This document shows, piece by piece, positions 47 to 34,089 of a stretch of 59,808 bases of DNA. Source of the DNA: a virus. The DNA lies in the IMG/VR virus record IMGVR_UViG_3300007512_000039, positions 1 to 59,808 of that record; one strand, given 5' to 3'. The notes under the pieces were generated by a model that saw only the letters and a list, made by a program, of their open reading frames with translations, ran no database searches and was not told the DNA's origin. A program made the position numbers and the translations under genes. Positions within the stretch are counted from its first letter, which is position 1; the number at the start of each line of letters is the position of its first letter.

Positions 47-1801
47 ATGCCTTCCCTTCATCAGTCTGGTCCCTCGAAAGAGGCTCGTTGGCGGAACACG
101 CCCATGTCGCTTCAGGAGCGGGATGCCTGGGAGAGGCAGCTCAAGGCGGCCCAGGAGAAGAAGCACGAGGCGAAGAAGCTCAAAGGCACTCGCCTCGCCC
201 ACGGAATGAGGGCCATGCAGAACAGCTTTCAATCGCAGACCCCGAAGGCCCGGCTGACTCGTCGGCTTGGCCTGGGTGTGGTGAAGAAGGGCTCTCTCTG
301 TGAGGCCATCGCCGGGACCATCAATCGCTCGGACTTCGCCCGCATCGACGTGGTCTACGAGGAGAGTCCTGCAGTTCAGCAGCTCCTGCCGAAGTCGGCG
401 GGGGTGATGACTGCGTTGCGGGGCCTGACCTCGCAGCCTGTGACGACTGGCGAAGAGGTGCTCGAGCGGTCGCTGAAGCTCGCCTCCCGTCCGCAGTTCG
501 ATGTCATCCAGCTTCGCGTGGACGGCTACGGCTACATCCTGAAGCACTCGGCAGCTCCGAAGGGTGTGAAGCCTCAGGAGCGGAAGGTGTCCAAGGAGGC
601 GGCGCAGAAGGCCCTCCCCCAGGAGATGGTCAACACTGCAGATCAGCAGGGTGTGGCAACCGTCACGGAGGTTCAGGCTGCTCCCGACCCGATGCAGGAG
701 CAGCCCCAGGCTGTGACGCAGTTCGGCATGTACAAGGTGACGGAGGCCACAGGCGGGCAGCTCGTCGGCTTCGTCATCCCGCAGCTCTTCGATCCGGTGC
801 AAGGTGTTCCGGTACAGCAAGGCCTCTTCTTCACGGGCGGCCAGTACGCTCTCGCTCCGCAGTTCCAGGGCGTCCTCACGGGCGTGAGCCACAATCTTCC
901 GGAGAGCGGAGAGCCTCGAGGTCTCGGCATCTTCTACCACACCGACGGCAAGGGTCTCCTGGCCACGGTGCCCTACACCATCATCTCCAAGGTGACGGCA
1001 GAGGGTGTGCCGTACTACGCGGCGCAGACGCAGACGGGTGATGAGGTTCAGGTCAAGATCTCTCAGGAGATCGTGCGGCCGCTTGCGGCGACTCCGGGTG
1101 AGATCATCATCCCGGCCAACTTCAAGTGGCTCGCCCTCGACAACGAGGTGCAGCTCATCGGGCCGGAGGCGGACCCGATGGCGGCACAGAAGGCGGCGTC
1201 GGTCGGCACCCTGTGTGAGATCCGTGCCTGGAGGCACGAGCTGGGGGCGGGTGGCGGTGTGGACCTGCAGGGACCGGTGTTCTCGAAGCTCGGTTCCGGG
1301 ACGCACACCTGGGCGGATGGCCTGTTCTACCTGGCTGCAGCCGGGATGCCACAGAACCTGGCCCTGGCCTGCATCGACAAGGCGGCTTCGTCGGGACAGG
1401 TCGTGAAGATGTACGGCCTGGCCCCACTGACAGATCACGACGACATGCTGAAGGATGCGGCCGCAGAAGCAGTGGCAGACTTCAAGCGTCTCGATCTGCC
1501 AGAGCGGCCACTTCTGCTGAAGGAGGCCCTCGCCATCGAGAGCACCAAGGAGGCTCGTGCTCTGGTCGGTACCAATGCTGTAGACCATCTCCTGGCCCTG
1601 AACTTCATCAACCCGGAGAACGTGGAGACCTTCGTCGAGTACCTGCCTGAGCTTGAGGACACTGCGTCCAAGCTGGCCCAGCTCACTTTCGCCGTGCAGC
1701 TCGGTCTCCAGAGTGTACCGAAGACGGCAGCCATCCATGCCATGCGGTCGCTCGATGCTGTCATCGCTTCGCTGAAGGCTCTGCGTCAGTACAAGGTGTG
1801 A
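47..1801 (+). CDS. Unassigned probable virion protein, 584 aa
   Basis: I do not recognise the family. The N-terminal 60 residues are basic and Gln/Lys-rich. The rest alternates short beta-like stretches with helices and has no signal peptide or membrane segment. It contains three copies of the K-x-A-S motif that recurs in the head-region proteins of this window (LKLAS, QKAAS, DKAAS), which is the main reason to infer a virion role. The ATG at 47 is preceded by AGGAG at 33-37. It heads a tight four-gene plus-strand run, and its stop overlaps the next start. Confidence 0.75.
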   Translation: MPSLHQSGPSKEARWRNTPMSLQERDAWERQLKAAQEKKHEAKKLKGTRLAHGMRAMQNSFQSQTPKARLTRRLGLGVVKKGSLCEAIAGTINRSDFARIDVVYEESPAVQQLLPKSAGVMTALRGLTSQPVTTGEEVLERSLKLASRPQFDVIQLRVDGYGYILKHSAAPKGVKPQERKVSKEAAQKALPQEMVNTADQQGVATVTEVQAAPDPMQEQPQAVTQFGMYKVTEATGGQLVGFVIPQLFDPVQGVPVQQGLFFTGGQYALAPQFQGVLTGVSHNLPESGEPRGLGIFYHTDGKGLLATVPYTIISKVTAEGVPYYAAQTQTGDEVQVKISQEIVRPLAATPGEIIIPANFKWLALDNEVQLIGPEADPMAAQKAASVGTLCEIRAWRHELGAGGGVDLQGPVFSKLGSGTHTWADGLFYLAAAGMPQNLALACIDKAASSGQVVKMYGLAPLTDHDDMLKDAAAEAVADFKRLDLPERPLLLKEALAIESTKEARALVGTNAVDHLLALNFINPENVETFVEYLPELEDTASKLAQLTFAVQLGLQSVPKTAAIHAMRSLDAVIASLKALRQYKV

Positions 1802-2661
1802 TGCGGCACCCCGCGCAGTTCTTCGTTCACTTCCTCTGGCTCTCCCTCGTAGAGCCTTCTTTGAAGGAAGTGAACAAGGTCCTTGACCGGTTCGGCCTTG
1901 CGGGTCTGACAGAGGGCCAGTACGGCCACATCCTCGAAGACCTGCCGACTACTCCTGACGACTTTCAGCCTGTGAACTCACGGCACCGGCCCACGATGGC
2001 ATGGCTAAAGAAGGTCGGCATCCGTTCGTTGGTTCGAGCAGACAAGGTCGCGCAAGAGATGAAGGTGGCTATCCTCGGCCATCCTCCTACGCGGGAGAAG
2101 GTCGAGCAGCTCCTCATCGGCAATGTCTCTCCTCGGGAGGTCTCGTACCGTCTGCAACGGATCGGGACGCACGTCTCAGATGCCGCTGTAGCGGAGTTCC
2201 GTCACTACTTCTGGGACACGCGAGAGATGGGCATCGCCGATTGGGCCGCGTACTTTGCTGAGGACCGGCAAGGGCGTACCCACATCTTGATGAGCCCCTA
2301 CATGGCAGCACTTCGGGGAGGGCCTGACCTGGCCCTGTATCGGGCAGGAATCAAGACCAAGCTCGACACGAAGAAGATCATGGAGGGGGTCATGCGAGAG
2401 CTATGGCACACCTTCCAGGAGACCTGTACGCTTCCGCTCTCGCAGCGGAAGGTCGAGATGCTGGGAACCCTCTCTCGGAACATTGCTCGTGCGGACGAGC
2501 GGTTGAAGGCCAGTGATACGGCACTGCAGGAGATCCTGCAGCAGTTCGAGAAGTTCAAGGTCATCGCGGACGATGAAGAGATCGTCACTCTTGCCGAGCT
2601 TGCTCCTACAGGTACGGTGAGTGATAAGAGTAGGGAACAGATCGTCTCGCGTCAGGGGTGA
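1801..2661 (+). CDS. Unknown protein, 286 aa
   Basis: The ATG at 1801 overlaps the previous stop (TGATG), which suggests translational coupling. A GTG at 1798 is an alternative start. The protein is mostly helical and charged, without a recognised motif. The middle part (SYRLQRIGTHVSDAAVAEFR) looks like a helix-loop-helix stretch and the C-terminal third could form a short coiled coil. Its position between virion-type genes suggests a structural or assembly role, but nothing in the sequence fixes it. Confidence 0.7.
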   Translation: MRHPAQFFVHFLWLSLVEPSLKEVNKVLDRFGLAGLTEGQYGHILEDLPTTPDDFQPVNSRHRPTMAWLKKVGIRSLVRADKVAQEMKVAILGHPPTREKVEQLLIGNVSPREVSYRLQRIGTHVSDAAVAEFRHYFWDTREMGIADWAAYFAEDRQGRTHILMSPYMAALRGGPDLALYRAGIKTKLDTKKIMEGVMRELWHTFQETCTLPLSQRKVEMLGTLSRNIARADERLKASDTALQEILQQFEKFKVIADDEEIVTLAELAPTGTVSDKSREQIVSRQG

Positions 2662-2664
2662 GGA

Positions 2665-3117: not shown

Positions 3118-3120
3118 ACC

Positions 3121-5204: not shown

Positions 5205-5251
5205 GTTGGGTGTCTCCAGACCCGGCACCATGGATTAGGTGTTTACCGGGC

Positions 5252-5257
5252 TATTCT
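5252..5257 (+). promoter_or_regulatory. Possible -10 element before terminase
   Basis: TATTCT lies 18 bases before the terminase ATG in the short gap between divergent genes. It resembles the other hexamers listed (TATTCT again at 48873). No convincing -35 was seen. Inference. Confidence 0.28.
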
Positions 5258-5275
5258 CCTTATGGCAGGGAAAGG

Positions 5276-8359: not shown

Positions 8360-8406
8360 GAGCTAAGAAGGATTGTAGGTAAAGAGGCTAAAACTTCAAC
8401 CAAGAG

Positions 8407-8445: not shown

Positions 8446-8461
8446 TCGAGAAGGGATGCGG

Positions 8462-10384: not shown

Positions 10385-11269
10385 ATGGTCTCCGATAGCG
10401 ATCTCCGAAGCCTGGCTCGTGGAGCGACTACCCGATTCCTTGACGGAGGCGGGGACTTCACGACGTGTGTGGCGAAGGTCGCATCGGCCTCTTCTCACAC
10501 TCTAACCGCGGAGCATATCCGTCGGGTGTGTGAGATGGCGTACCATGATGCCTTCGAGCGGGAGTGGCAGAAGCAGGCAGGCGGGAGCCGGCTGGTGTCC
10601 TTCGACCCGCCCTGTGCGAAGGAAGCTGCCCGGCTGTGCAATGCAGAGAAGGTTGCGGCCGCGCGAGTCCGGGCCACGACCGTGACTGGGCATCCGACCA
10701 TGGACAAGATCGCGATGGCAGAGATCCCGCACGTCCCTCTTCCGCCGCCCATCACGAACGCCTTCACCTCTGCCATGCGCTCCTCGCCTGTAGATCGGGA
10801 GCTCGGAGTCCGGGAGGCTCTTCACACCCTGAAGACTGCGGCCCAGGATCTCAATGAGGCGATCTCGCAGGTCGAGATCGAGATCGGCTCCGCCAAGTCG
10901 GCGGAGCTCTACGCCCACACTGCTCTGGGTCGTCAGGCTCGTCAGGCATGCCTGGACGGAGCGACTCCAGGCCAGGCCCTCGCGGTATGTGAGCACTTCC
11001 TGAAGGAGGCGGAAGGTGTTCCCGCTGACATCGCTGTGGATGTGCTGGCACACCTGGCAAGGGACATGATGACGGGCAACGTCTTCCCGGAGCCTGTGAA
11101 GCTCGCGGCCCCTCCGAACCCTCGTCACCCTCTGAACCGTCTGGTCGTGAAGGCGGCCCACATCCGTTTCGGACGACTGCAGCGGGAGATCGCTCTTGGT
11201 GATCTCCGTGCGGATCGTCAACGGCTGGAGAAGGAGCTGGGCAGTGAGCTCTACCAGCTCGGAGCGTGA
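10385..11269 (+). CDS. Unknown helical protein, 294 aa
   Basis: A soluble, mostly helical protein that begins the long structural operon. GGAGAGGAC precedes the ATG. It has KVASAS and VKLAAP, variants of the motif shared by head proteins here. The C-terminal part is charged and may form a coiled coil (RADRQRLEKELGSELYQL). The next gene starts four bases after its stop. A head-assembly role is likely from position only. Confidence 0.7.
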   Translation: MVSDSDLRSLARGATTRFLDGGGDFTTCVAKVASASSHTLTAEHIRRVCEMAYHDAFEREWQKQAGGSRLVSFDPPCAKEAARLCNAEKVAAARVRATTVTGHPTMDKIAMAEIPHVPLPPPITNAFTSAMRSSPVDRELGVREALHTLKTAAQDLNEAISQVEIEIGSAKSAELYAHTALGRQARQACLDGATPGQALAVCEHFLKEAEGVPADIAVDVLAHLARDMMTGNVFPEPVKLAAPPNPRHPLNRLVVKAAHIRFGRLQREIALGDLRADRQRLEKELGSELYQLGA

Positions 11270-11273
11270 GCGC

Positions 11274-11546
11274 ATGCAGCGGTTCCGGAAGCTCGCGCTT
11301 CTGGGAGCGGCCAAGGCTGTAGCCAAAGGAACGGCCAATGTGGCCGCGAAGGCTACAGGTGTTGGAGCGCGGACGACTTGGCGCACTGCCCAGAGAGTGT
11401 CCTCCGGCGAGAACCTCATGCCCAAATCCCGGGCCATAGGTCTCGTAGGTCTTGGCGGGGTTACTACCGTAGGCGGTGTGCGGACAGTTCGTGAAAACGC
11501 AAGAGCAGCTCGAGCAAGCTCAGAAGCTCCGTGGAAGGCACAATGA
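11274..11546 (+). CDS. Small Gly/Ala-rich basic protein, 90 aa
   Basis: The start at 11274 follows GTGAGCGC and gives MQRFRKLALLGAAKAVAKG. There is a basic amphipathic N-terminus and a short glycine-rich hydrophobic segment (IGLVGLGGVTTVGGV) that could insert in a membrane. Its stop overlaps the next start (ATGA). No family recognised. Similar Gly-zipper segments appear in proteins at 11543, 15882 and 23430. Confidence 0.6.
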   Translation: MQRFRKLALLGAAKAVAKGTANVAAKATGVGARTTWRTAQRVSSGENLMPKSRAIGLVGLGGVTTVGGVRTVRENARAARASSEAPWKAQ

Positions 11547-12673
11547 CCATCTCCATCTACACCGACTCTGACCTCTCTGCCGAGGATGTCCTGGAGCTGG
11601 AGGACTTCGACGGAATGCTCCACGAGGGATCGAAGCGTGCGTCCTTCGGACGAGTCGGAAGGATGGCTCGCAATGCGACGGAGAACACGGCTGCCCAACT
11701 CATTGCCGGCACTCTCGGAACTGCTACCGTGGTCGGCGGTAAGGCCATGTACGACAAGGCCACATATGGGCGTGACCTGCGGGCCATCACCGATGTCTAC
11801 CCGCACTTGAAGAAGTACCCCGAGAAGGAGCTTCGCCTCGCTTACAGCTCGCTGCGGAACCTGAACCCGCAGTTCGCCAAGGATCCTCTGGTAGGAGGTA
11901 CCCTCCTTGGGCAGCTCCTCCGGCAGCGGGATCCGCTCAACCCCAAGGCACTCCGTCTCGACCCGGGGATGGCTTCCGACCTGGTCCGCAATCGTCGTGA
12001 CACCCGGGGTGGAATCGACGAGATGGTCCCTGCGGCCTTCCAAGCAGGGATGCAGGGTGCGATGGATTACGAGGGCGTCCTCGGTGACCGTGCCTTCAAG
12101 CGGGAGATGGCCGCGGCGGATCGGTCCTTCAAGCGTGAGACGCAGACCGGCGATCACCGCTTCAAGCGGGAACTGCAGACCGGAGACCAGACCTTCCGTC
12201 ATGATGAGGCCCTGAAGGATCGCACGCTTCGGACCTCACAGTCTGCGGCTGATCGAGCTCAGCGTGGGAAGCATCACACCGAGCAGATCGAAGCACGACG
12301 CGGTGAAGAGCGGCGGCGGACCTCTCGAGAGCGGTCGAAGGGTGTTCGTGAGCGGATCGAACGGCTCACGGCCGAAGCCACACGTCGCAAGCACGACAAG
12401 ACGCTACAGCAGCAGAAGGACGATGCTGCGATGGGGCGTGAGCAGTACAAGGTCCTGAACAATCCGCTGTCACGCAAGAGTCGGAGGGCGCAGCGCAGGC
12501 GGGGGCTTCTGGCAGCGTACTCGGCCGAGCCTTCGCAGTCATCTACAGCGGATTACTCGGTGCGTGGTCTGGCTCGTGGTGTGGGTTCTCGGATTGACTC
12601 CTCGACCGGTTCGGGCCCTGATTCGGACCCGAGCACTCGTCGCGGATACCATCACCCAGGATCTCGGAAGTAG
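11543..12673 (+). CDS. Probable scaffold-like protein with 11-residue repeats, 376 aa
   Basis: The ATG overlaps the previous stop and has GGAAGG upstream. The N-terminus is acidic, followed by SKRASFGRV and a Gly/Ala/Thr-rich segment. From 12091 to about 12255 there are five imperfect 11-residue repeats (AFKREMAAADR, SFKRETQTGDH, RFKRELQTGDQ, TFRHDEALKDR, TLRTSQSAADR), typical of a hendecad coiled coil. The rest is very basic and Arg-rich. A rod-like internal head or scaffold role fits, but is inferred. Confidence 0.7.
   Translation: MTISIYTDSDLSAEDVLELEDFDGMLHEGSKRASFGRVGRMARNATENTAAQLIAGTLGTATVVGGKAMYDKATYGRDLRAITDVYPHLKKYPEKELRLAYSSLRNLNPQFAKDPLVGGTLLGQLLRQRDPLNPKALRLDPGMASDLVRNRRDTRGGIDEMVPAAFQAGMQGAMDYEGVLGDRAFKREMAAADRSFKRETQTGDHRFKRELQTGDQTFRHDEALKDRTLRTSQSAADRAQRGKHHTEQIEARRGEERRRTSRERSKGVRERIERLTAEATRRKHDKTLQQQKDDAAMGREQYKVLNNPLSRKSRRAQRRRGLLAAYSAEPSQSSTADYSVRGLARGVGSRIDSSTGSGPDSDPSTRRGYHHPGSRK
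12091..12255 (+). repeat. Five in-frame 33-base (11-residue) repeats
   Basis: These are imperfect tandem copies of an 11-codon unit inside the 11543-12673 gene. The period is kept at the protein level, with F/T-F-K-R at the start and D-R/H/Q at the end of each unit, which supports selection for a right-handed coiled coil. Confidence 0.7.
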
Positions 12674-12679: not shown

Positions 12680-15600
12680 ATGGAGAAGCGGTTCGATCTT
12701 TCGGGCACAGGACCGGGTGGATTTCCTCTCATCCATTTGGTGGAGCCGGGATCTGCCTACGGCTTGAACCAGACAGCAGGCCTTACGAAGACTGCTTCTG
12801 GCGAACATCTCTCTCCTGTCATCGAACTTCTTGAGGCCATCCAGCCGCAGCCGGATCGTCTCTACCTGGTGAACTCTGCCCTCGGTGCAGGGGAGTATGT
12901 CGGCTTCAATCTCCGAGGTGACTGGTTCACCGAGGCAGGACTGAAGCACACGCCTCCGGGATGGGACTCCATCCCTGTGTGGGACATCGATGCGCGTCGT
13001 CGCGCGGCCATCGTGCCGGAAGATGTGCCCGGCTACGGCCCAATGTGCTGGGGCTACCCCACGTTCTACAACGCACATCGGTTCCGGCACCATCGCAACA
13101 ATGATCCGAACCGGGCCTACGGCTACATCCTCGGAGCGTTCTACGACGACCGGATGCACCGGGTTGTACTGGTCTCGGAGCTCATCAAGGACCTTTGCGT
13201 CAAGCACGGTGCGCTCAACATCTATGAGCGCATCGCCCGTGGTGACTTTGTCGATACCAGCATGGGCTGCTTCCCTGCGGGAGCGATGGTCAGTCTCTAC
13301 TCAGGAGAGCGAAAGGCCATCGAGACCGTGGAGGTGGGTGAGTATGTCCTGACCCATACAGGGAGCAGAGGGCGAGTCAGGGCTCTTGATAGTCATGTGC
13401 ATGAGGGGCTGTACACGATCAAGGTTTCTGGTGTTGGTTCCATGGAGGTGACGGAGGAGCATCCGTTCTTCGTGATTCCGGTCGAGCAGATCAGGTGTGA
13501 AGTTCCAAAGACGCACAACTACGGCCGACAGCAGAGGGCGTGTGTCTCCTCCCTGAAAGACTTGAAGAAGGGCTGCCAGGGTTGTCCGGTGGAGCCAGCG
13601 TACGATCCTGTCTGGAAGAAGGCACAGGACCTGGACGTCGGCGATTTCGCACTCTCTCCGGCTCCTTCAGAGGTTGTGGAGAGGTTGACGGCGAAGCAGG
13701 CCAGGATCCTCGGATACTACGCCTCCGAGGGGAACATCTGCTGGTACTACCCGAAGAAGGGCGGGAAGCGTCAGCTCGACCGGAAGTACCCGGGTGGAGT
13801 GTGCTTCACGATCAACCACGATGAGGTTGATCTTCTGGAAGACATCGAGGAGCTCTGCTGCGCCTTGGACCTTCCTGAGCCGTCGGTGGCGTGGAGGGAG
13901 GGGACGTCCACGTTCAGTATTGCTGTCTACCAACGGAAGTTCGCAGAGTTTTGCCTCGCGATGTGCGGGAAGTACTCTTTGGCGAAGCGGCTGGCTCCGG
14001 AGCTGATGCTCGCTCCGCCTGACGTCCAGAAGGAGTTCTTGGGGGCGTATCTGAACGGCGATGGCGGTTGTCTTCGAGGGCAGGCATACATCTCGACAGG
14101 TAATGAGCAGCTCGCGTACCAGTTGCAGATGATGATGATCCGGTGTGGTATCGCTACCAGCCTCAATGTCATCAATCACAAAGGAACGACCAGCTCTCTG
14201 ACAGACAAGGATACCGTCGAGTACCAGATTTGGCTTGGTGTGCTTGGAGGATACCGGCTTCAAGATTACTCTTCGCATCCTCTGAGGAAGCCGAAGAAGG
14301 TTCTTAGCCAGAGGTGGACGTGGGTCGGTCCTGATGGGACGCCCTATGTGGCAAGTCCCGTTGTAGAGGCGTCGTACGACCCGGAGTGGGTGGGAGAGGT
14401 TTACAACTTCTCTGTGGACGACGACGAGAGCTACTGCATTTCAGGTGTGGCGGTTCATAACTCGAGAGTCCCCGACGATGAGTGCTCCATCTGTGGCCAC
14501 CTGGCTCGGACGCCTGCCCAGTACTGCCGTCATGTTCAACGAGGAGCGGTGGCCCCGTACGGGATGGGGAAGCTCCTTGCAGATGGCCGAAGGTGTGGGG
14601 TCTACAACCACCATCCCTTGTTCTTCGATGATTCCTTCGTGTTCATTGGCGCGGAACGGTCCGCGAAGGTGATGGACAACGTCACCCCACTCCTCCGTGG
14701 AACGAGAACGTACACCTCTCAGGTCTACATCCCTCCTCGTCGTATGCGTCGCCGCCGTGTTGCTTCGGCAGACTCCAAAGCAGCTTCACTACTCGGACAA
14801 GAGACGGGAGATGAGCAGCGGGAGAAGGATGTCGAGCTCGGTCAGGCTCTGGTCCGTGCGGCGAACCCTCCTGCGATGGGAGCGCACACAGGTTCCCTTG
14901 GCGACAAGATCTCGAAGCTCCTGTCTGTCATCCCGACCCTGAACGAGAAGCAGGACATGGCCCTGCAGCATGTGACGGAACGCATGCGTAGACAGGAAGC
15001 GATTCGTGAAGGATCCATGGAGAAGTCAGAGCTCCAGTTCTGGGAGCAGCGACAACTACATCAGCTCCGCCAGAAGGGAGTCTCGAAGGAAGACGTCTCT
15101 CAGATGCAGGCTGTGGTTCAGCGACAGATGCGCTTCGCCTTTGGTGGTCCGCGTCGGGGTGCACTCAAGAAGGCGTCCTTGATGCACGCGAAGTGGGCAG
15201 AGCATCTGAAGCGCATCCCTGTGCCTTCCCAGTCCCAGCTCGCACTCGTGGCTGAGCATGCGGCTCGACTTCCCCAGCTCCCGCCGAGTCTCCTCGACTT
15301 CATCTCCGAGGACTTGAAGCCTCGTTGCTCTGTTCTGGCAGAGATGGGTGTAGTTCTTCAACCTGAAGAGTTCGCATACGCTGCGGCACCTTCAATGCTT
15401 GAAGGCTTGACGACAACCCGTCGAGCCGCGTTTCTCAATACGCCGTTGCCGCCTGCGCCGATCTGCCCATCGTACACTCCGATGCCTCGGCCCGGGATAG
15501 CCGGTATTTGCCGCAGAACTCGGCGAAGGATCCTCTCCAAGGATCTTTTGGGCCTGCGCTCGCTGGCCCCGCGGCATGTAGGGCTCCGTCTCGTGATGGC

Positions 15601-15820
15601 TCGCCCACGACGACAGATCCGCTCGGATGTGTTGCCTCCTGAGGATGTGACCTTGAAGCGGGCATCCTTGCTCTACAATGATTATCGTCTTGGCCTTCTG
15701 GCACAGCCTCCGGCATGGAGCTATGGCTTTGATCGTCCGGGGGAGAAAGTCTCGTCAGTAGAAGAGCTCTCATCCCTACTTCTTCGACTTGCACACTGGC
15801 CCTCCTTCCCAATAGGATAG
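12680..15820 (+). CDS. Probable capsid-maturation protease/head protein with intein
   Basis: The precursor is 1046 residues; residues 197-594 are an intein, leaving about 648. The N-terminal extein has the pattern of phage prohead proteases: NLRGDWF, then YPTFYNAHRF-RHHRNNDP, then YGYILGAFYD and a hydrophobic strand VVLVSEL. Next comes GDFVDTSMG, which joins SRVPDDECSICG after splicing, with YCRHV further on, suggesting a zinc-binding Cys/His cluster. The C-terminal half is helical and carries K-x-A-S motifs (SKAAS, LKKAS, LKRAS). Position just before scaffold-like and capsid genes supports the call, but the catalytic residues are not certain. Confidence 0.65.
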   Translation: MEKRFDLSGTGPGGFPLIHLVEPGSAYGLNQTAGLTKTASGEHLSPVIELLEAIQPQPDRLYLVNSALGAGEYVGFNLRGDWFTEAGLKHTPPGWDSIPVWDIDARRRAAIVPEDVPGYGPMCWGYPTFYNAHRFRHHRNNDPNRAYGYILGAFYDDRMHRVVLVSELIKDLCVKHGALNIYERIARGDFVDTSMGCFPAGAMVSLYSGERKAIETVEVGEYVLTHTGSRGRVRALDSHVHEGLYTIKVSGVGSMEVTEEHPFFVIPVEQIRCEVPKTHNYGRQQRACVSSLKDLKKGCQGCPVEPAYDPVWKKAQDLDVGDFALSPAPSEVVERLTAKQARILGYYASEGNICWYYPKKGGKRQLDRKYPGGVCFTINHDEVDLLEDIEELCCALDLPEPSVAWREGTSTFSIAVYQRKFAEFCLAMCGKYSLAKRLAPELMLAPPDVQKEFLGAYLNGDGGCLRGQAYISTGNEQLAYQLQMMMIRCGIATSLNVINHKGTTSSLTDKDTVEYQIWLGVLGGYRLQDYSSHPLRKPKKVLSQRWTWVGPDGTPYVASPVVEASYDPEWVGEVYNFSVDDDESYCISGVAVHNSRVPDDECSICGHLARTPAQYCRHVQRGAVAPYGMGKLLADGRRCGVYNHHPLFFDDSFVFIGAERSAKVMDNVTPLLRGTRTYTSQVYIPPRRMRRRRVASADSKAASLLGQETGDEQREKDVELGQALVRAANPPAMGAHTGSLGDKISKLLSVIPTLNEKQDMALQHVTERMRRQEAIREGSMEKSELQFWEQRQLHQLRQKGVSKEDVSQMQAVVQRQMRFAFGGPRRGALKKASLMHAKWAEHLKRIPVPSQSQLALVAEHAARLPQLPPSLLDFISEDLKPRCSVLAEMGVVLQPEEFAYAAAPSMLEGLTTTRRAAFLNTPLPPAPICPSYTPMPRPGIAGICRRTRRRILSKDLLGLRSLAPRHVGLRLVMARPRRQIRSDVLPPEDVTLKRASLLYNDYRLGLLAQPPAWSYGFDRPGEKVSSVEELSSLLLRLAHWPSFPIG
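13268..14461 (+). mobile_element. Second intein with LAGLIDADG endonuclease
   Basis: A 398-residue intein starts with CFPAGAMVSLYSGE and ends SGVAVHN before Ser. Block B is EVTEEHPFFVI and block F is GEVYNFSVDDDESYCISG. Two LAGLIDADG-like motifs are visible, LGYYASEGNI and FLGAYLNGDGG. A Cys-rich insert (CVSSLKDLKKGCQGCP) precedes the endonuclease part. It interrupts a conserved-looking site between SMG and SRVPDDECSICG. Confidence 0.92.
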
Positions 15821-15881: not shown

Positions 15882-16955
15882 ATGTCCGCTCTGCTCGCCC
15901 AGCTCGCCTCCCAGGGCATCACCGCCGAGGACCTCAACAAGGCCGCCAGCGTTCGCCTCTTCGAGAAGGTGGCTGCGGCCGAGGGCATCGACCTCAACTC
16001 CATGACCGAGCAGGCGCAGGACGCCATGTTCGCGCAGTTCGAGAATGACATCCTCCCGGAGATGGTCGGCGACAAGACCGCGTCTGCCCCGACCCAGGGC
16101 GGTATGCCCAGCATGGATGACATCGACCCTGCGAAGCTCGCGTCCGCCATCGGCGCGCTGTCCGACGACGACAAGTTCGGCCTCTTCGAGCAGCAGGCCG
16201 CCTACGAGGGCCTGGACCTCGAGCAGCTCGACGACACCAAGCTCGCGAGCGCGTACGGCACCTTCATCGAGGACTACCTCCCGCTGGTCGTGGTCAACGA
16301 TGGCAACCCCATCGACATGAGCAAGGTCGCGGAACAGGAGGAGGCGGCAGCGAAGCTGGCCGAGGCCGACATCCTGGGCCGCCAGATGGCTCGCTCCTTC
16401 GCCGAGGAGCTCGGGTGGGACAAGGCGGCCAACAAGGAGCTCACGAGTCGTCTGTCTGCCGCAGCGAACCGTGACGCGTTCATGAACCGCCTCAACCGCC
16501 GGACCAGCGGGCCGCAGTCTCCCGCTCCGAACTCGCGGGCCGGTACGGCGCGGCGTATGCAGGGCGGTACCCTGCCGCCGCCTGCCCCCGGAGAGATCAC
16601 CCCGAGCTGGTCGAAGGGCTTCGACAAGGTTCGGCGCCGGGAGGCGTTGAAGAACCCCACGAAGTCGCTCGGACCTCGGTACCGTGCTGGGCTTCGCAAG
16701 GCCATCGACGCGGCGGAGAAGAACCCCCGTACGGCCAAGGCCCTCGCTGCGGGCGCTGGGATCGTCGGTCTCGCTGGGGCAGGTCTCGGCGCGAAGAAGC
16801 TGCACGACCGCAAGAAGGCTGCCAGCGCCTTCGACGAGCTCGCGCTGCAGCGTGCTGAGGATCTGCTCAAGGAGGCCCAGGGCCCGACCCTCGACGACGC
16901 CCTCGACGCTCGCGCCATCGAGATCCTCGAGGCGAACGGCTACGTCTTCGAGTAG
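15882..16955 (+). CDS. Probable head/scaffold protein with K-x-A-S repeats, 357 aa
   Basis: The ATG at 15882 has GGAG 8 bases upstream and is preferred over a TTG at 15837. The N-terminal half is acidic and helical with five motif copies (NKAASVRLF, DKTASAPT, AKLASAIG, TKLASAYG, KKAASAFDE). A basic Pro-rich linker and a Gly-rich hydrophobic stretch (AAGAGIVGLAGAGLGAKKL) follow. Its place between the protease candidate and the capsid gene suggests scaffold or internal head protein. Confidence 0.7.
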   Translation: MSALLAQLASQGITAEDLNKAASVRLFEKVAAAEGIDLNSMTEQAQDAMFAQFENDILPEMVGDKTASAPTQGGMPSMDDIDPAKLASAIGALSDDDKFGLFEQQAAYEGLDLEQLDDTKLASAYGTFIEDYLPLVVVNDGNPIDMSKVAEQEEAAAKLAEADILGRQMARSFAEELGWDKAANKELTSRLSAAANRDAFMNRLNRRTSGPQSPAPNSRAGTARRMQGGTLPPPAPGEITPSWSKGFDKVRRREALKNPTKSLGPRYRAGLRKAIDAAEKNPRTAKALAAGAGIVGLAGAGLGAKKLHDRKKAASAFDELALQRAEDLLKEAQGPTLDDALDARAIEILEANGYVFE

Positions 16956-17218: not shown

Positions 17219-18118
17219 ATGAGCAAGCACACCTCCCTCATCGATCAGGCCCTGGCACGCGCACGCGGTCAGGCCCTTCGCGGCGGCCTTTCCAAGACGG
17301 CTGCAGCTCCTGCTGACAACACCGTCGCCGGACTCGTCAAGGAGGCGAACGACGTCGCCTCCGCGATGGAGTTCGTGGCTCTCGATCAGGCCAACGACGG
17401 CACGGTCAAGGCCGCGCACCAGGTGGACATGATCCGCCGGTTCCTCAAGACCGGGGCGGGTCAGCCGGCCATGCTTCCGACTGAGGGCGGTGGGACGCAG
17501 AACGTCGCTCCGGCCTCCGGCAAGACCACGCTTCTGCCCGAAGGCGGCGGGAACGGTGGGCAGCCCCAGGAGCACGAGGCGGCCGCAGGCGGTCTGTCAC
17601 GTAGCGCGATGGAGCAGCCGGCTCCGGCGACGGCCCCGACCCACACGGCTCCGGCCTCGGGCGCGGGTGCTTCGAAGAAGGCCAGTCTCTTCGACATGAT
17701 GACAGCTCGCTTCGACCAGCCGGTGGGTGGACAGCCCAAGACGGCGGCCCATGGCGGTCCCATCGATCTTGAGGCCGAGGATGGCAAGCTGCCTCCGAAG
17801 CGCAAGAACGAGAACAGCAACATTGGCCTCCTTGAGAGCAACACCGCCCCGGTGAGTGCGACTCGTCGGCAGGCCAAGGCCCCGACCCGTGCCCGGCTGA
17901 AGAAGCTCTTCGCTGGTGCCAGCGACACGACCGGCGACCAGACCGCGAAGGCCATCTTCCCGCAGGCGTACGGTAAGGGCGGCCTCAAGGTCGCATCGTC
18001 CGGTGGCCAGACCAAGGAAGGCTCCGCCCGCGACTGGTCAGGGGTTTTCCTCGCTGCGAAGGACGGCAGCCTCGGGGAAGAGGCCCAGGCTTTCGCCAAC
18101 TACATCGAGCAGATGTGA
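17219..18118 (+). CDS. Probable scaffold-type protein, 299 aa
   Basis: A low-complexity Ala/Gly/Pro/Thr-rich protein with short helices at both ends. It carries LSKTAAAP, SKKASLFDMM, PKTAAHGG and LKVASSGG, copies of the recurrent motif. The length, disorder and place two to four genes before the major capsid fit a scaffold or internal head protein that the protease might process. No recognised domain. AGGGGA precedes the ATG. Confidence 0.65.
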   Translation: MSKHTSLIDQALARARGQALRGGLSKTAAAPADNTVAGLVKEANDVASAMEFVALDQANDGTVKAAHQVDMIRRFLKTGAGQPAMLPTEGGGTQNVAPASGKTTLLPEGGGNGGQPQEHEAAAGGLSRSAMEQPAPATAPTHTAPASGAGASKKASLFDMMTARFDQPVGGQPKTAAHGGPIDLEAEDGKLPPKRKNENSNIGLLESNTAPVSATRRQAKAPTRARLKKLFAGASDTTGDQTAKAIFPQAYGKGGLKVASSGGQTKEGSARDWSGVFLAAKDGSLGEEAQAFANYIEQM

Positions 18119-18133: not shown

Positions 18134-18427
18134 TTGAGCCTTCTTCACGCCTTGAACTCGCACCCCGGACGACGCATGTCGTCTCGTGGGCGTGCGCTTC
18201 AGAGCTTGAAGAAGGTTGGATCTTCAGGGCTTGAAGTGGCCGAGTCGATGGCCTTGGCGATGTTCGAAGGCTATGCTACGTCAAAGAGGGCTGAGGCAGA
18301 CGACTCTACCCACGAATCCGAAGACGACGCACGTCGCCGGAGGATCGGGGAGCTTCTGAGACGTCGCGCCCCGTCAGGCCTGTCCACAGGCTCTGCAGAG
18401 CCCACACCTCCTCGGAGCAACTCATGA
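18134..18427 (+). CDS. Unknown small protein, 97 aa
   Basis: The start is a TTG at 18134 with GAGG 8 bases upstream, and the stop overlaps the next ATG (ATGA). The N-terminal 50 residues could form an amphipathic helix with a hydrophobic face (VAESMALAMFEGYA). The C-terminal part is acidic then Arg-rich. Function unknown. Confidence 0.5.
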   Translation: MSLLHALNSHPGRRMSSRGRALQSLKKVGSSGLEVAESMALAMFEGYATSKRAEADDSTHESEDDARRRRIGELLRRRAPSGLSTGSAEPTPPRSNS

Positions 18428-18795
18428 ACGCACACGCCTCGGCAGTCGCCGCTCGAAGCGCGGTCACGATGCGGAAGCTCGCCTCTGCCCTCGAGCAGAA
18501 GGAGGCGGAGTGCGCCCAGCTCCAGGCGAAGGTCGCCGCCTACGAGCGGCGTGACCGGATCCACGATCTCGCCCGGCAGATGGATGAACGGGGTGTGAGC
18601 CCCGAGATGTCTTTCGACCAGAAGGTCGCGAGCATCAACCACCACTGCAAGACGGCAGGCGCGTTCGACACCCTCGAGACCGCCATCAAGCTCGCCGGCA
18701 CAGGCCGTGTCGAGTTGGCCACGGTCGACGACGAGACTCCGGTTCACGGAGCCAACCCCACCACCGATTTCCACAGCTTCCTCGTGAACGGTTAG
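18424..18795 (+). CDS. Unknown helical protein, 123 aa
   Basis: It starts with a coiled-coil-like helix (MRKLASALEQKEAECAQLQA) and has the repeated motif in RKLAS and QKVAS. Soluble, with no recognised domain. Translational coupling with the previous gene is likely. Its place shortly before the capsid gene suggests a head-assembly factor. Confidence 0.65.
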   Translation: MNAHASAVAARSAVTMRKLASALEQKEAECAQLQAKVAAYERRDRIHDLARQMDERGVSPEMSFDQKVASINHHCKTAGAFDTLETAIKLAGTGRVELATVDDETPVHGANPTTDFHSFLVNG

Positions 18796-19497: not shown

Positions 19498-20667
19498 ATG
19501 AACTGGCTCGACACCGACACCTACAGCAGCAGCGAGATCAACAGCGGTTTCGTCGAGCAGCTGGAGACCCAGGGCACGCACAAGACCGCCGCCGAGGGGC
19601 TGAACTTCATCCGTGACCGGATCCGCGAGGCTTCGTTCACGGACCTGGTCATCCCCAACAAGCGGGTGGTCCGCGGTGACCTGGAGCGCAGCGACAAGCA
19701 CGACACCCTCGTGAAGATCGTCGACATCGAGCCGGGCAGCCGGGCGATGCCGCTGACCTTCCGGGGCCAGCCGAAGTCCGAGTACATCTCGGGCAAGCGC
19801 TACGCCATCTCCTTCTACACCATCAGCTCCCTCCGCTTCGAGATCGTCGAGCAGGAGCTCATGGCGTACGAGATGCCGGTCACGCGGCTCATCGAGCGCA
19901 ACTCCCTCCGCGACATGGTCGAGGTCAAGGACCGCGAGTTCGTCCTCCACATCGAGTCTGCGGTGCAGGCGATGCAGGAAGAGGCCAACGGCGGCGCGGT
20001 GGCCTTCACCGCGGCCAACGTCGAGGCCGAGACGGTCCTCGAGGTGAGCAAGGTCAAGGGCGTCTTGGCCATGCAGGAGGACAGCTCCAACTTCACCGTG
20101 AAGGCCATCCAGCGGAAGGACATCGTCAAGATCCGCAAGCTGCTGAAGCGGATGATCCAGGACAGCAGCGGCAACGTGGTCCGGGCCGGTCGCCTGCGCC
20201 CCGCGTGCATGCTCGCCACCGAGAGCGACATCGACGAGCTGGACTCCTGGACCCACGAGGACATGGGCGACAAGAACCAGTCCGAGACGGCCATCAACGG
20301 CTGGGCCTACAACAAGGCCCTCGGCCTGAAGATGATCAAGACGATCAAGAACGACATCCTCCGCGAAGGCAACATCTACGTCTTCACCACGGCGGACTAC
20401 CTCGGTCGCAACTACACGCTCAACGACGTCAAGTTCTACATCGACAAGCAGGCCAACCGCATCTACTGGCAGGCCTGGATGGACATCGGGATGGGCATCG
20501 GGAACATCGCGTCCATCGTGAAGCTCGAGCTCTACTCCGGCTCCGTCACCGACAGCGCGACGACCTCCGGCTACACCGCGGCCATCCCGGTCGACGTCGA
20601 GGACATGGGCCAGCGGAATCATAAGGTCGACGAAGGATTGACCTACCCCGCTCTTCAGCTCCATTAG
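19498..20667 (+). CDS. Major capsid protein candidate, HK97-type
   Basis: At 389 residues it has the size of a major capsid protein and lies at the usual place after scaffold and decoration genes. The N-terminal arm is polar, followed by a segment like the extended loop (DIEPGSRAMPLTFRGQPKSE) and a long spine-type helix (NSLRDMVEVKDREFVLHIES). The later part alternates strands and helices (AINGWAYNKALGLKMIKTIK). Codon use is strongly GC-biased as in highly expressed genes. GAGGAA precedes the ATG and a strong hairpin follows at 20725. No other gene here fits the role better. Confidence 0.8.
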   Translation: MNWLDTDTYSSSEINSGFVEQLETQGTHKTAAEGLNFIRDRIREASFTDLVIPNKRVVRGDLERSDKHDTLVKIVDIEPGSRAMPLTFRGQPKSEYISGKRYAISFYTISSLRFEIVEQELMAYEMPVTRLIERNSLRDMVEVKDREFVLHIESAVQAMQEEANGGAVAFTAANVEAETVLEVSKVKGVLAMQEDSSNFTVKAIQRKDIVKIRKLLKRMIQDSSGNVVRAGRLRPACMLATESDIDELDSWTHEDMGDKNQSETAINGWAYNKALGLKMIKTIKNDILREGNIYVFTTADYLGRNYTLNDVKFYIDKQANRIYWQAWMDIGMGIGNIASIVKLELYSGSVTDSATTSGYTAAIPVDVEDMGQRNHKVDEGLTYPALQLH

Positions 20668-25128: not shown

Positions 25129-26016
25129 ATGATCACCCTTCGCAACGTGAGGGTGACCGGCTTCAGCAGGTCGTACTACGACGTGTACTGGGAGGTCGCC
25201 CCAACGACCTCCGACCTGCAAGAGTACGAGTTCTACGTCGAACGGTCTGAGGCAGAGGCCGGACCTTTCCAGGAGATTGCCGGACCGCTCATCGACCGGT
25301 TCCATCTCCGGGACAACGACGTTCCACTCATCTCCAGCATGCGGACGCTCTTCTACCGCATCAAGGTCCGGCACCCTATGTCGGGCAAGGTGGAGTACTC
25401 CGAGACCGTAGATAGGTGGGGCCAGGCACCGCTCATCGCGCAGGAGATCATCCGCCTCGAGACTCTCCTCTTCCAGGAGTTCAATGGCCGTACCTGTTGG
25501 ACATTTCCCAGGCGAACCTTTGGGCAGCGATGCCCTCAGTGCTGGGATCACGTCATGCAGAAGTGTCGTGATGACCAGTGTCCTACATGCTTCAAGACAG
25601 GGTTCTCCGGCGGGTACCACTACCCGGTACAGTTCTTTGGACAGATCGATGAGGCAGAGCTCCAATCAGAGATCACGCTCCATGATCACCATGCGCAGAA
25701 GCACTTCCGTCTTCGGTGTCCAGCTTCTCCGGAACTGAAGCCCGATGACCTTCTTATCGACTACAAGAACCGACGTATGAAGGCTGTCAAGATCGGAGGC
25801 ACCTCTCATCTTGGGGTCCGTGTACGGCAGGAAATCACCCTTGTGCTTCTACAGCCAGGCAGTATCGAGGATGCAGTGCCTTTGAAGGTCGATGCGGAGA
25901 CGCTACAGACTGTAGGGTGGCGGAACTACATCAATCCCCACAACGTGGAAGCAATCACGCAAGGACCGTTCGACGACGGTATGGATTTCCTCCTCGGAAG
26001 GTTCGGACACCGATGA
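25129..26016 (+). CDS. Probable neck/connector protein with zinc motif, 295 aa
   Basis: The N-terminal 100 residues resemble a fibronectin-III-like beta domain (DVYWEVAPTTSDLQEYEFYV). A zinc-type cluster follows: RCPQCWDHVMQKC and CPTCFKTGFSGGYHYP. The C-terminal half is beta-rich. Proteins with this layout occur in other large myophages near neck genes, by my recollection, so a head-tail joining or baseplate role is suggested. The next gene overlaps by four bases. Confidence 0.65.
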   Translation: MITLRNVRVTGFSRSYYDVYWEVAPTTSDLQEYEFYVERSEAEAGPFQEIAGPLIDRFHLRDNDVPLISSMRTLFYRIKVRHPMSGKVEYSETVDRWGQAPLIAQEIIRLETLLFQEFNGRTCWTFPRRTFGQRCPQCWDHVMQKCRDDQCPTCFKTGFSGGYHYPVQFFGQIDEAELQSEITLHDHHAQKHFRLRCPASPELKPDDLLIDYKNRRMKAVKIGGTSHLGVRVRQEITLVLLQPGSIEDAVPLKVDAETLQTVGWRNYINPHNVEAITQGPFDDGMDFLLGRFGHR

Positions 26017-26399
26017 CCCAGCGACAGGAAACCAGAGACCTCAGTACGGTTCCGTGGAAGACTCTGGCCGGGAACATCCTGGGTGTGACCGGTGCTCACG
26101 CTCTTGGGTACGCATCGGCAGGAGCCCTCGCCAATGTCTATGCCCGCTCCCGCTTCGGCCGTAAGTTCAGGCAGCTCCCGCCTGCCCGTCAGCAGCGAAT
26201 CATGCAGTCCTTCGTCAGCCTGGCAGGCACCGGAGCGACGATGGCAGGAACCCTTGCCTCGTATGCGGGGAAGATGCGGACTGCCGAAGAGCAGGCACGT
26301 CTTCAAGAGCTGAAGCGTCTTCAAGGCTTGAAGGAGCAGGGAAGCCCGAAGGTGGCGAGTGTCGCGGAGGCGTACATCTATGCGCTGAAGCGCTTGTAG
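26013..26399 (+). CDS. Small membrane-associated protein, 128 aa
   Basis: The ATG overlaps the previous stop (ATGA). Two hydrophobic Gly/Ala-rich segments lie at about residues 18-36 (ILGVTGAHALGYASAGALA) and 66-86 (FVSLAGTGATMAGTLASYAG). The C-terminus is a charged helix ending with PKVASVAEAY, a copy of the head-protein motif. Function unknown. Confidence 0.6.
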   Translation: MTQRQETRDLSTVPWKTLAGNILGVTGAHALGYASAGALANVYARSRFGRKFRQLPPARQQRIMQSFVSLAGTGATMAGTLASYAGKMRTAEEQARLQELKRLQGLKEQGSPKVASVAEAYIYALKRL

Positions 26400-26408
26400 G
26401 AGGCGTCC

Positions 26409-27203: not shown

Positions 27204-27212
27204 GAGTCCAGT

Positions 27213-30200: not shown

Positions 30201-31340
30201 AGTCGCGAGGTCTTCTGTCTGGCTTCGCTCACGGATGACTCGTACATCCAGAGCTTGATCGGTACACACATCGGTTCGATGTCGAAGGCGACGAACCGTG
30301 GTGAGCGGATCGCGTTCATCTGGTCGGGGATTCCGACCCGCGACGTGGACACCGTGGTAGCGTCTGGCACCGATGGCGAGACCAACGGCACTGACGACAG
30401 CTTCAACCTGGATGTGAACCCGGCCTCGGATCTCATCGCCAACGGCCTGGACCCGACGGACCTGTCCTACGACGATCAGGTCTTCCTTCAGATCGTGGTG
30501 ACCGATGCAGGCGCGTCGGAGCTTCGCCGGTACAGCGTCTCCATCGCCAACGGCGTGGTCCTGACCCTGCGGACTTCCTTCGATGACGACGAGAACGAGG
30601 ACGGCTTCTTCACGACGGCCACCCTCGACGAGTCTCTCGAGAACGTGGATTGGACTCTCTACATCCGCGGTGAAGAGCTCCTGATCGCCGGGAGCTCGGT
30701 GAAGGACCTCAACGCCATCGCCCAGGCCGTCGGAGATGCCGCAGAGCCCTACGGCTCTCGCCGCATCTACTACATCGCCTGCGATGATGTCGAGACCAGC
30801 ATCGACGGTACGACCTTCAAGATCCCTGGCTACTACCTGTCCGCCGCGTATGCGGGCATGGCTGCAGAGCAGCTTCCGCAGCAGCCCTTCACGCACATGC
30901 CTCTGGCCGGCATCGGTCGGGTGTATGGCACCGATGACACCTTCTCTGAGGATCAGATGGACACCATGGCCGATGGCGGCCGGTGGGTCATGGTGAACCT
31001 CGGGGGTGTGGCGGTGTCTCGGCATCAGCGGTCTACGGACAACACCTCCGTAGAGACGATGGAGTTCTCCATCACCCGTGCCCTCGACTGGCTCTCCAAG
31101 GGCCTGCGGAAGACCAACCGGGTGTTCATCGGTCGGTCGGTCATCACTCCTGGTTTCCTGGACCAGCTCACGATGTCCAACGAGGGCTTCCTCGACTATG
31201 CGGAGCAGTTGGGCGCGGTTCAGAAGGCCGATCTCACCGAGCTGCTGCAGTCTGAGGAGCGGCCGGATACGGTCTTGGCAGAGGTCGAGACCCAGCCTTC
31301 GTACCCCTGCAACAAGATCTCGATTACCGTCGTCTCCTGA
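27213..31340 (+). CDS. Tail sheath protein, exceptionally long (1375 aa)
   Basis: The sheath contracts to drive the tube through the host surface. The N-terminus NRPGVEVE fits sheath proteins, and the last 250 residues have the usual sheath end (YYLSAAYAGMAAEQLPQQPF, GRWVMVNLGGVAVSR, SITRALDWLSKGLRKTNRVF). Between about residues 128 and 868 there are five related beta modules with a flagellin-IN-like pattern (for example TADAIVDAINTAAGADV, ADAIDDINELVDGSGD). They probably form outward-facing domains. AGGAGTC precedes the ATG. The length is about twice that of the well-known sheaths. Confidence 0.85.
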   Translation: MASENRPGVEVEQKIASTSTVVAAPDLVPLVVGVCHQIIEALDSDGALNSDAKYSAEQYNQASLAIPQADLPDPRDNIDELEVDEGEVNGYLYFGGTLTKLDRGSNGTTGSAFLKLANLSTRAAIRSTLDISAGLTFSSTGDAFNFYLDVVNTSSSTAVPVEVELSGSMTADAIVDAINTAAGADVAELIDDTYLQISSQTYGAVSSVTLQANNAGTLILFQTATFTNTVEYRVEGSGFVGQDDEDGDTYTPWIEFFRGGYFEDGADTTFPVTGTTTPSTTDEVWGGLIDQDDTFSPAKAAALVYTGTSADVPLQAATTSVPGDQLWASGVQVGDGEIIKVEQSRFKIGKLSTTNSTFDDDGVPTVRVYDTIEVATLLHGTPWAPKYAYFVADGLVFGEITPEGEAASVTGSETGLDERSAYVVSGSDISFPLSAGGLTLEFAVTEDGEAGDTVTYTFTSTFTDIGELVSELGDADEFDQFTVSAHGDFRLVLQTTKTGADQAISIKSTGSANGVLGFSTTAATEDDGTDVEFATQATVTGARISLPLESEGSSALDMVVTDSKGTHTLSATGVDLTAGTLGALIASISGALGGDGTSTVTDNGIPVGTLSTSGDGDASGTITFTTTEGGANVSVEIQAIDGDDGFRHCGFFDDGGGEWAQVDGSAQVFPLDLTGGGGGTALDFEYHYDIGGAGSTSLGGTVNFTAVDVDDLAEKLNAEAAITDYSGERVVWFVANADDSISIRTVEGGTNIRIEINTGTPVGLTNGATDDGTAADNADADGADGIKGTTLGFTLDDNPYVYEIIFSSNSLADAIDDINELVDGSGDVASETSSALTLTSLLEGAASAITIEEVDGSDTLGLEDASDTGAGRPNPDFYQDDSGVAYFGPNILRSTSTGIPYSLESALADIYIAYEALRLDVTPSASSPAALEFDNTSDIEAAIGPISIKNPLALGMFLAKANTPSNSVTGFGVDEATAAAPMGTLDGWARALEFAESREVFCLASLTDDSYIQSLIGTHIGSMSKATNRGERIAFIWSGIPTRDVDTVVASGTDGETNGTDDSFNLDVNPASDLIANGLDPTDLSYDDQVFLQIVVTDAGASELRRYSVSIANGVVLTLRTSFDDDENEDGFFTTATLDESLENVDWTLYIRGEELLIAGSSVKDLNAIAQAVGDAAEPYGSRRIYYIACDDVETSIDGTTFKIPGYYLSAAYAGMAAEQLPQQPFTHMPLAGIGRVYGTDDTFSEDQMDTMADGGRWVMVNLGGVAVSRHQRSTDNTSVETMEFSITRALDWLSKGLRKTNRVFIGRSVITPGFLDQLTMSNEGFLDYAEQLGAVQKADLTELLQSEERPDTVLAEVETQPSYPCNKISITVVS
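28491..29816 (+). repeat. Four tandem beta modules inside the sheath gene
   Basis: Modules at about residues 427-525, 542-650, 667-770 and 788-868 share the same order: a strand after an S/P-rich start, a helix of the type ELVSEL or DAIDDINEL, then strands and a Gly/Asp-rich end. A fifth, separate module lies near residues 128-235. Similarity is seen at the level of pattern, not identity. Confidence 0.55.
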
Positions 31341-31358
31341 CGCTCCTGAGGAGTACTC

Positions 31359-32117: not shown

Positions 32118-32167
32118 TGCAGGAGGCTACTGCTCCCGCCCCATCCCTCTGACCTGAGGACCTCCAG

Positions 32168-32869: not shown

Positions 32870-32905
32870 TCGGTAGGCTGAGTCTTCTCGGGATAGGGAG
32901 GAGGT

Positions 32906-33505
32906 ATGACCTCTCTGCCTGAGTTCCAGAGCTTCGCAGAGCACGTGAAGCAGGGCATCTTCCCGTCCGTTGCTACGCCTATGGCTCCCCAAGCCATCAA
33001 GACCCTGCGGAAGGTTCACAACCCTCTGACGCAGGCTCAGGGCCGTGCAACACAGGGTCAGGTAGCCACTGGCCTGCGTACTTCTGCAGACCAAGGGTTC
33101 GCTCGTAGAAGCATGCAGGGAACTGCACAGGCCAATGTGCGTGGCTCAGTAGCGAGTCCCACAGGAAGAGGCGGGACTTCCGCATTCGTCGCCCGCCCTT
33201 CGGCCAAGCCCATCGCCCCGCAACAGCCGAAGATCCCTGCGCCGAAGACTGCCTCGGCAGACCCTGAACTTCTCGAGGAGCTATTGAAGGTGGCGAGGAT
33301 GTCGGAGCGGGACCGTCGGCATCGATACTACATGCAGAACCGTCAGCGGATCCTGCAGCAGAACCGCCAGTACCGTCAGAAGAACAAGGCATCCATCTCT
33401 CGGAAGCAGAAGAGGTACCGCAAACAGGTGACCTCTGGCATGCGGAAGCAGAAGCGGCGCATCAACACTGGAGGCCACAGCTACCAGTACGGAGGTTGGA
33501 AGTGA
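32906..33505 (+). CDS. Unknown basic protein, 199 aa
   Basis: A strong ribosome site (GAGGAGG) precedes the ATG. The N-terminus SFAEHVKQGIFPSVATPM resembles that of the small protein at 16971. The middle is Gln/Arg/Ala-rich and disordered, with PKTASADPELLEELLKVARM. The C-terminus is extremely basic (Arg/Lys/Gln-rich), which suggests binding to DNA or RNA. A packaged virion protein is possible. Confidence 0.6.
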   Translation: MTSLPEFQSFAEHVKQGIFPSVATPMAPQAIKTLRKVHNPLTQAQGRATQGQVATGLRTSADQGFARRSMQGTAQANVRGSVASPTGRGGTSAFVARPSAKPIAPQQPKIPAPKTASADPELLEELLKVARMSERDRRHRYYMQNRQRILQQNRQYRQKNKASISRKQKRYRKQVTSGMRKQKRRINTGGHSYQYGGWK

Positions 33506-34089
33506 TCCCCTTCAACGCCTCCTTTGTGCACGAGCTCTCGAAGCTCGCCTCCTCGGACCCAGGCAAAGGGTGGGAGTTCTACGGTGATGGTCGTGAGCTC
33601 ATCGCCTACCAGAAGGGGAAGGCGGTCGAGGACATCGACATGACGGCCGTACGCGAAAGTGGAGGTCGCGTTCGGGTCATCATCCCGACCTCGGGCGGAG
33701 AGACACGTCTGGAGCCTCGGAAGAAACTCTTGGGGATCTTCAAGCGTTCCCCCAAGCGGGTACACGTCCCCTACGACAACTTCCGCCAGTTCGATGTCAC
33801 CCCCGGTATGGATCCGGCACTGAAGTCGGAGATGTTCAAGCTCTTGTGGAAGCGACCACGTGCGGCAGGGGTATGGGCTCCGGAAGGCTCCATGGATGCC
33901 TTCGCAGAGCAAGAGCTAAAGAAGAGAGGCACTGCACTGCCTTCTTCCGTGGCCCCTGGCCTCATGAAGAACGTACGCGGAGTGAAGGTCAAAGGCCTCC
34001 CGTCCCTCCGAGGTCCTGGCCTCCCGAAGGTGGCTCCGGCTGAAGGAACCAATCCCTTCAAGGCCAACCGACTCAAGATGAGTCAGTAG
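33502..34089 (+). CDS. Unknown virion-type protein, 195 aa
   Basis: A GTG at 33502 overlaps the previous stop (GTGA) and has GGAGG upstream. The N-terminus FVHELSKLASSDPGKGWEFY carries the recurrent motif. The rest is basic, with Pro-rich loops. It is the last gene of the plus-strand structural operon and overlaps the convergent gene end by 17 bases. No domain recognised. Confidence 0.6.
   Translation: MIPFNASFVHELSKLASSDPGKGWEFYGDGRELIAYQKGKAVEDIDMTAVRESGGRVRVIIPTSGGETRLEPRKKLLGIFKRSPKRVHVPYDNFRQFDVTPGMDPALKSEMFKLLWKRPRAAGVWAPEGSMDAFAEQELKKRGTALPSSVAPGLMKNVRGVKVKGLPSLRGPGLPKVAPAEGTNPFKANRLKMSQ

Follow-up and report, generated by a model that had tools for sequence, protein, structure and literature searches.

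The window analyzed here (IMG/VR virus record IMGVR_UViG_3300007512_000039, 59,808 bases) carries a head module on its plus strand in which the gene for a predicted head-maturation (prohead) protease follows portal/internal genes and precedes the major capsid gene (Table 1; proteins are named below by their start positions). Many proteins of this module share a short motif, K-x-A-S, which an initial annotation had proposed to be either a cleavage site for the prohead protease or a docking signal for scaffold or capsid. The order portal-protease-capsid is common to Arash, phage G, Alice, Phrappuccino, Stormageddon, and CherryTomatoes, and the gene for the 11543 protein corresponds in order to Arash gp221. 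Relatives were fetched by protease similarity, first 13 close loci and then a wider set of 74; a scan of the genome collection returned no relative, and the plasmid collection gave no match.

Table 1. Motif-bearing proteins and the protease intein, with the positions of K-x-A sites
Feature	Position	Strand	Length (aa)	K[AKLRTV]AS copies	K-x-A-S or capsid site	Further sites and remarks
Virion protein resembling Arash gp218 'structural protein'	47..1801	+		3	KLAS 476, KAAS 1190, KAAS 1379	KEAA, KDAA, KTAA
Head protein, Arash gp220 counterpart	10385..11269	+		1	KVAS 10475-10486	KEAA, KVAA, KTAA, KLAA, KEAE, KQAG
Head protein	11543..12673	+		1	KRAS 11633-11644	Residue 31, N-terminal
Head-maturation (prohead) protease	12680..15820	+	1046 with intein	4	KTAS 12788-12799 (N side of domain, residue 37), KAAS 14777-14788 (C side of domain, residue 700 with intein, ~300 without)	KKAS 15167-15178, KRAS 15656-15667
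Intein of the protease	13268..14461	+				Residues 197-594 of protease; Hint and LAGLIDADG matches
Scaffold-like protein	15882..16955	+	357	5	KAAS 15939, KTAS 16074, KLAS 16134, KLAS 16239, KAAS 16815	KVAA, KVAE, KLAE, KAAN, KEAQ
Head-module protein	17219..18118	+		2	KKAS 17675, KVAS 17987	KTAA 17294 and 17738, KEAN 17339
Small head-module protein, Arash gp225 position	18424..18795	+		2	KLAS 18475, KVAS 18622	KVAA, KTAG, KLAG, KEAE
Major capsid protein	19498..20667	+	389		KTAA 19582-19593	Residues 29-32, N-terminal arm
Small protein	26013..26399	+		1	KVAS 26349-26360	
Basic-ended protein, near far end of module	32906..33505	+		1	KTAS 33245	LLKVA/R (KVAR 33287)
Protein	33502..34089	+		1	KLAS 33541-33552	

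Homologues of the 12680 product match phrog_18299, 'head maturation protease' (D181, E=7e-7; Arash, 2e-6; L006, 2e-3), and the homologue in the Gordonia phage Stormageddon is annotated as 'capsid maturation protease'. The protease of the window is unmatched in Pfam, and a search of PDB sequences with its profile gave no meaningful match. Its conserved blocks are NAHRFRHHxNxDP and DTSMG, followed by the intein and then by SRVPxDxCSICGxxARTPxxYCxHV; in intein-less relatives these form one continuous domain, GAGEYxGxNxxGDxF...AHxFRHHxNKDP...SMGxxxPYDxCSICxxxA...YCxH. S194, H137, H138, and H220 are invariant in 15 diverse protease sequences; catalytic residues would be found among these four, with Ser194 presumably the nucleophile. 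An AlphaFold model was made of the intein-less relative L006 (predicted local distance difference test score, pLDDT, 57.7; predicted template modelling score, pTM, 0.55), and Foldseek alone gave no match to it below E 0.3. When the Foldseek candidates for this weak model were re-ranked with VIA-align, herpesvirus assemblins and T4 gp21 made up the first 23 rows (Z 4.7-5.9), the best assemblin at Z 5.9 and T4 gp21 (5jbl) at Z 5.4, with identity to the assemblins of 6-17%.

The protease intein, with boundaries drawn from the sequence and from intein-less relatives, has Cys as its first residue, a terminal His-Asn, and a following extein Ser. It lies 3 residues past the presumed nucleophile; the protease should be inactive before splicing. 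An interrupted protease gene of equal length is present in the near-identical loci L001 and L002, and the intein is absent from the other relatives read, e.g. L004-L006 and L009-L011. The large terminase gene (5210-8359) likewise contains an intein with splicing and LAGLIDADG domains, which ends in HN/S ahead of the ATPase part.

The initial annotation had listed some 20 copies of K-[AKLRTV]-A-S in at least ten proteins, five of them in one 357-residue protein; the exact number is 21, in exactly the ten listed, and the five copies were found in the protein starting at ATG 15882. Motif statistics compared the plus-strand genes up to 34,089 with the remaining genes of the window. Among the former, K.AS (the dot standing for any residue) is the top-enriched gapped tripeptide, with 22 observed and 2.95 expected (Poisson p ~1e-12), and in the latter there are 0 copies versus 1.3 expected. 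In a composition-matched control of the kind suggested by the initial annotation, none of 2000 local shuffles attained the observed count (shuffling within 20-residue blocks: mean 3.0, maximum 10). Related forms (K.SA, A.KS, A.SK, S.KA, S.AK, KAS, K..AS, and R.AS) are near expectation, and KA.S is slightly elevated (6 versus 3.2 expected). The codons for the motif K, A, and S are mixed and match the genome's own usage; a DNA-level repeat is therefore excluded, and the repeat resides in the protein. Since K.AA is likewise enriched (20 versus 5.8 expected), the final Ser is favoured but non-essential, and the pattern is better described as a K-x-A core followed by S or A. The ten named proteins all carry the motif; the major capsid protein, with KTAA, had been overlooked. 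The RKASDG of ParB (39123-40049), offered as a copy in an enzyme, is K-A-S and not K-x-A-S.

As a control, the same counts were made for T4 genes 20-24, 67, and 68. Among the gapped dipeptides there, I-x-E is in first place and L-x-E in third, and [LI].E combined (55 versus 29, p 1e-5) is the known specificity of gp21; therefore, such counts can read the specificity of a prohead protease from sequence.

The motif-carrying families are those of the head module (47, 10385, 11543, 12680, 15882, 17219, 18424, and 19498), whereas the terminase, the sheath, and families 1798, 2665, 18882, 22420, 22907, and 25129 hold it 0-8 times. For instance, K.A[SA] occurs 7 times in the scaffold-like 15882 protein (0.88 expected), 6 times in the 47 protein (0.74 expected), 5 times in the 10385 protein (0.35 expected), and 3 times in the 18424 protein (0.23 expected). 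The single K-x-A-S copies in 11543, 26013, 32906, and 33502 are individually non-significant. Within families, the motif K is conserved at 0.63 versus 0.36 for other K, in a comparison whose sites are not independent within one family and whose p-value, which counts linked sites as independent, was therefore set aside; it exceeds other K in 8 of 8 motif-bearing head families. The values include those of the scaffold-like protein (0.74 versus 0.35), the 10385 protein (0.66 versus 0.35), the 47 protein (0.65 versus 0.47), and the 11543 protein (0.51 versus 0.26); the excess in the capsid protein is only slight because the aligned column shifts by one. Additionally, relatives of the 10385 protein hold 5-8 sites, those of the scaffold-like protein bear repeated LFEKTASAEGIDLDDM units, and the sites of the 18424 protein are conserved among relatives. 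The KVAS of the 26013 protein is retained in a 41%-identical homologue in L112. No homologue of the 33502 protein was found, and its KLAS may be due to chance.

Besides K3 beside the start, K37 and A39 are the sole invariants in the first 60 residues of the 15 proteases, and the N-terminus is otherwise variable. Both sites at the edges of the protease domain map to linkers that the L006 model predicts with low confidence (28-41 and 285-320). The capsid protein of the window is unmatched in Pfam, and that of D181 matches Phage_capsid (E=2e-5). An AlphaFold model of the window's capsid protein has a pLDDT of 74.7; in alignments with HK97-fold shells, it scores Z 15.6 against encapsulins and Z 13.8 against HK97, and the KTAA adjoins a break that separates two predicted N-terminal helices. 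Of 41 distinct homologues (mutual identity <90%), 40 have K-x-A at this N-terminal position, at identities down to 22%.

In the 32906 protein, the site stands just ahead of a basic end, the final 69 residues carrying a net charge of +21. Three relatives have this basic domain behind the same site (DELVKLA, DEMMKLA), and in L114 it stands behind only a short leader, MNSLLLQFFSDELVKLA. The 32906 protein may be a packaged head protein that binds DNA and is released from its leader by cleavage. By analogy with the internal proteins of T4, leaders that end in the motif could combine targeting with cleavage.

The motif follows the protease family into other phages. K.A[SAG] is enriched, and R.A[SAG] is at expectation, at nearly all protease loci; the low counts for L001, L011, and L080 are uninformative, as the crude longest-open-reading-frame caller fails on high-GC loci. 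A blind search of the cultured phages Arash (Salmonella) and D181 (Vibrio) returned L-x-K-x-A and K-x-A-S. Across the Arash genome, [LIMV].K.A occurs 68 times versus 30 expected in proteins that the depositors themselves labelled structural, and 12 times versus 16 expected in the others. The Arash RNA polymerase beta subunit (L026:3321-7898) begins with MPKSAS; like the virion RNA polymerases of phiKZ-like phages, it may enter the head and undergo trimming. In phage G, K.A[SAG] is found 29 times versus 8.6 expected, and the protease has GLVKTAA at one end and LEKVAS/LLKIAS at the other. Four Mycobacterium and Gordonia phages, whose more distant proteases have 28-32% identity, show the motif as [K/R]-x-A, and R-T-A is its strongest form in Stormageddon and Alice. 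In these actinophages, the excess of [KR].A[SAG] is limited to the genes from portal to capsid and does not extend to their neighbours (Stormageddon, 48 versus 13 expected against 18 versus 16).

A logo of the sites shows L/M/F at P5, E at P4, K at P3, T/V/Q/E at P2, A at P1, and S, then A, at P1'. It is informative from P5 to P1' and almost flat past P2', which is the shape of a protease subsite profile, and Ser at P1' is enriched 4.8-fold in the clade of the window. The proteases of T4, phiKZ, 201phi2-1, and SPN3US all cut after Glu (PMC5694885), whereas the enriched motif here is K/R-x-A, and no comparable Glu-ending motif was found among the enriched motifs of the window, Arash/D181, the actinophages/phage G, or the logo. 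The Ala at P1 and Ser at P1' are instead those of herpesvirus-type specificity, as in the R and M sites of pseudorabies pUL26N assemblin (YLQA/T, VQA/S; PMC4498786). The hydrophobic P3 of the herpesvirus type is not found: P3 is Lys here (Arg/Lys in actinophages), and the hydrophobic preference lies at P5.

We infer from these results that the sites are cleaved, and it is highly probable that the phage's own 12680 protease recognizes K-x-A-(S/A) as its substrate site and cuts after Ala. This agrees with the first of the two earlier proposals, as the sites lie on either side of the protease domain, are numerous in the scaffold-like protein, occur in the N-terminal arm of the capsid protein, are confined to the head module, are conserved, and track the protease family. 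The position of the scissile bond is suggested by analogy with herpesvirus VQA/S and YLQA/T and with the A-x-E rule of SPN3US gp245, where Ser is favoured at P1' (PMC10052503, PMC5694885). In the proposed order of events, the protease and the scaffold-like protein would be packed within the prohead. After assembly, the spliced protease would free itself through cuts at the KTAS that precedes its catalytic domain and the KAAS that follows it, and would then cleave each of the scaffold-like and internal proteins at several positions. The capsid protein would lose its first 31 residues at KTA/A, and proteolysis would thus clear the prohead for DNA. The full site preference would be approximately [L/M/F]-E-K-[T/V/Q/E]-A/S.

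Several points weigh against this interpretation. Cleavage at the sites is itself inferred, and some K-x-A copies need not be cut. The capsid protein of L103 has KHS at the site, that of phage G lacks K-x-A in its N-terminal region, and the N-termini of the actinophage proteases have no consistent site. Furthermore, the L006 protease model is weak, its Foldseek result is non-significant, and a Z of 5.9 is under the level that would suffice by itself.

Among the alternatives, it is unlikely that K-x-A-S is an uncut signal for docking or targeting to scaffold or capsid. Such a signal would fit the restriction of the motif to head-module proteins and the short leader that it ends in the 32906 homologue, much as capsid-targeting sequences do in the internal proteins of T4. 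However, the multiple copies per protein, the copies at either edge of the protease domain, the conserved capsid copy, and the P5-P1' span of the logo favour cutting. The T4 targeting leader also ends in a protease site. Docking as initially proposed poorly explains the domain-flanking and multi-copy sites, although leaders may combine targeting with cleavage. It is very improbable that the motif is a functionless by-product of Ala/Lys-rich helices and shared descent; many sites are in helical, Ala-rich proteins and some are within the repeats of the scaffold-like protein, but the local shuffles, the near-chance letter permutations, the conservation of the motif K, and the K-to-R change in actinophages argue otherwise. 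Finally, cutting by a host protease or another phage protease has almost negligible probability: the link between the 12680 enzyme and its substrates is a predicted one, but the motif tracks the protease family across phages whose hosts are unrelated (Salmonella, Vibrio, Mycobacterium, Gordonia, and the phage G host) and stands at the edges of this protease's own domain.

Compared with known systems, cleavage by the 12680 protease would be most readily likened to that by herpesvirus assemblin, which is in the top structural rows for the modelled protease and shares Ala at P1 with a small P1' (Ser/Thr) and, as proposed here, self-release plus scaffold cleavage. The two differ in P3 (Lys/Arg here, hydrophobic there), in the capsid protein itself apparently being a substrate here, and in their low sequence identity. 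T4 gp21 ([L/I]-x-E) is similar in module order, in its place among the top structural rows, and probably in the cutting of scaffold, internal, and capsid proteins, but has Glu and not Ala at P1 and belongs to another sequence family. Similarly, the phiKZ, 201phi2-1, and SPN3US proteases have a P3-x-P1 rule with Ser at P1', multiple sites within propeptides, and C-terminal self-cleavage, but Glu at P1 and a different P3. HK97 gp4 cuts its capsid protein after Lys103. An HK97-fold capsid protein with a removable N-terminal part is common to both, but the propeptide is a scaffold of ~100 residues in HK97, whereas it would comprise ~31 residues here, next to a separate scaffold-like protein.

No published K-x-A prohead site, and no account of Arash virion or Bxz1/cluster C processing, was found in the literature; cleavage is unmentioned in the Myrna capsid paper. 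Likewise, no earlier description was found of a protease lineage with a [K/R]-x-A site code, herpesvirus-like in its P1 Ala and basic at P3. If the [K/R]-x-A/S code is true, the prohead-located and trimmed proteins of these phages could be listed from sequence alone, and the starts of mature capsid proteins could be predicted, across Salmonella, Vibrio, Mycobacterium, and Gordonia phages and phage G. The code also supplies assay peptides for an uncharacterised protease family whose modelled fold appears related to a herpesvirus drug target. It is doubtful, though conceivable, that the herpesvirus-like Ala/Ser cut kept by this lineage, which includes Arash, phage G, Mycobacterium cluster C, and many uncultured phages, is near the ancestral specificity of all duplodnavirus maturation proteases and the Glu cut of T4 and phiKZ derived.

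Two further regions of the window were noted. The 1375-residue protein encoded at 27213-31340 is probably the tail sheath, judging from its start (MASENRPGVEVE...) and position; it matches relatives in two segments, with a divergent middle part. The 36566-37711 protein matches a PHROG porphyrin biosynthesis family and ATPase families (cobaltochelatase-like), and its gene adjoins one for a 674-residue protein on the same strand.

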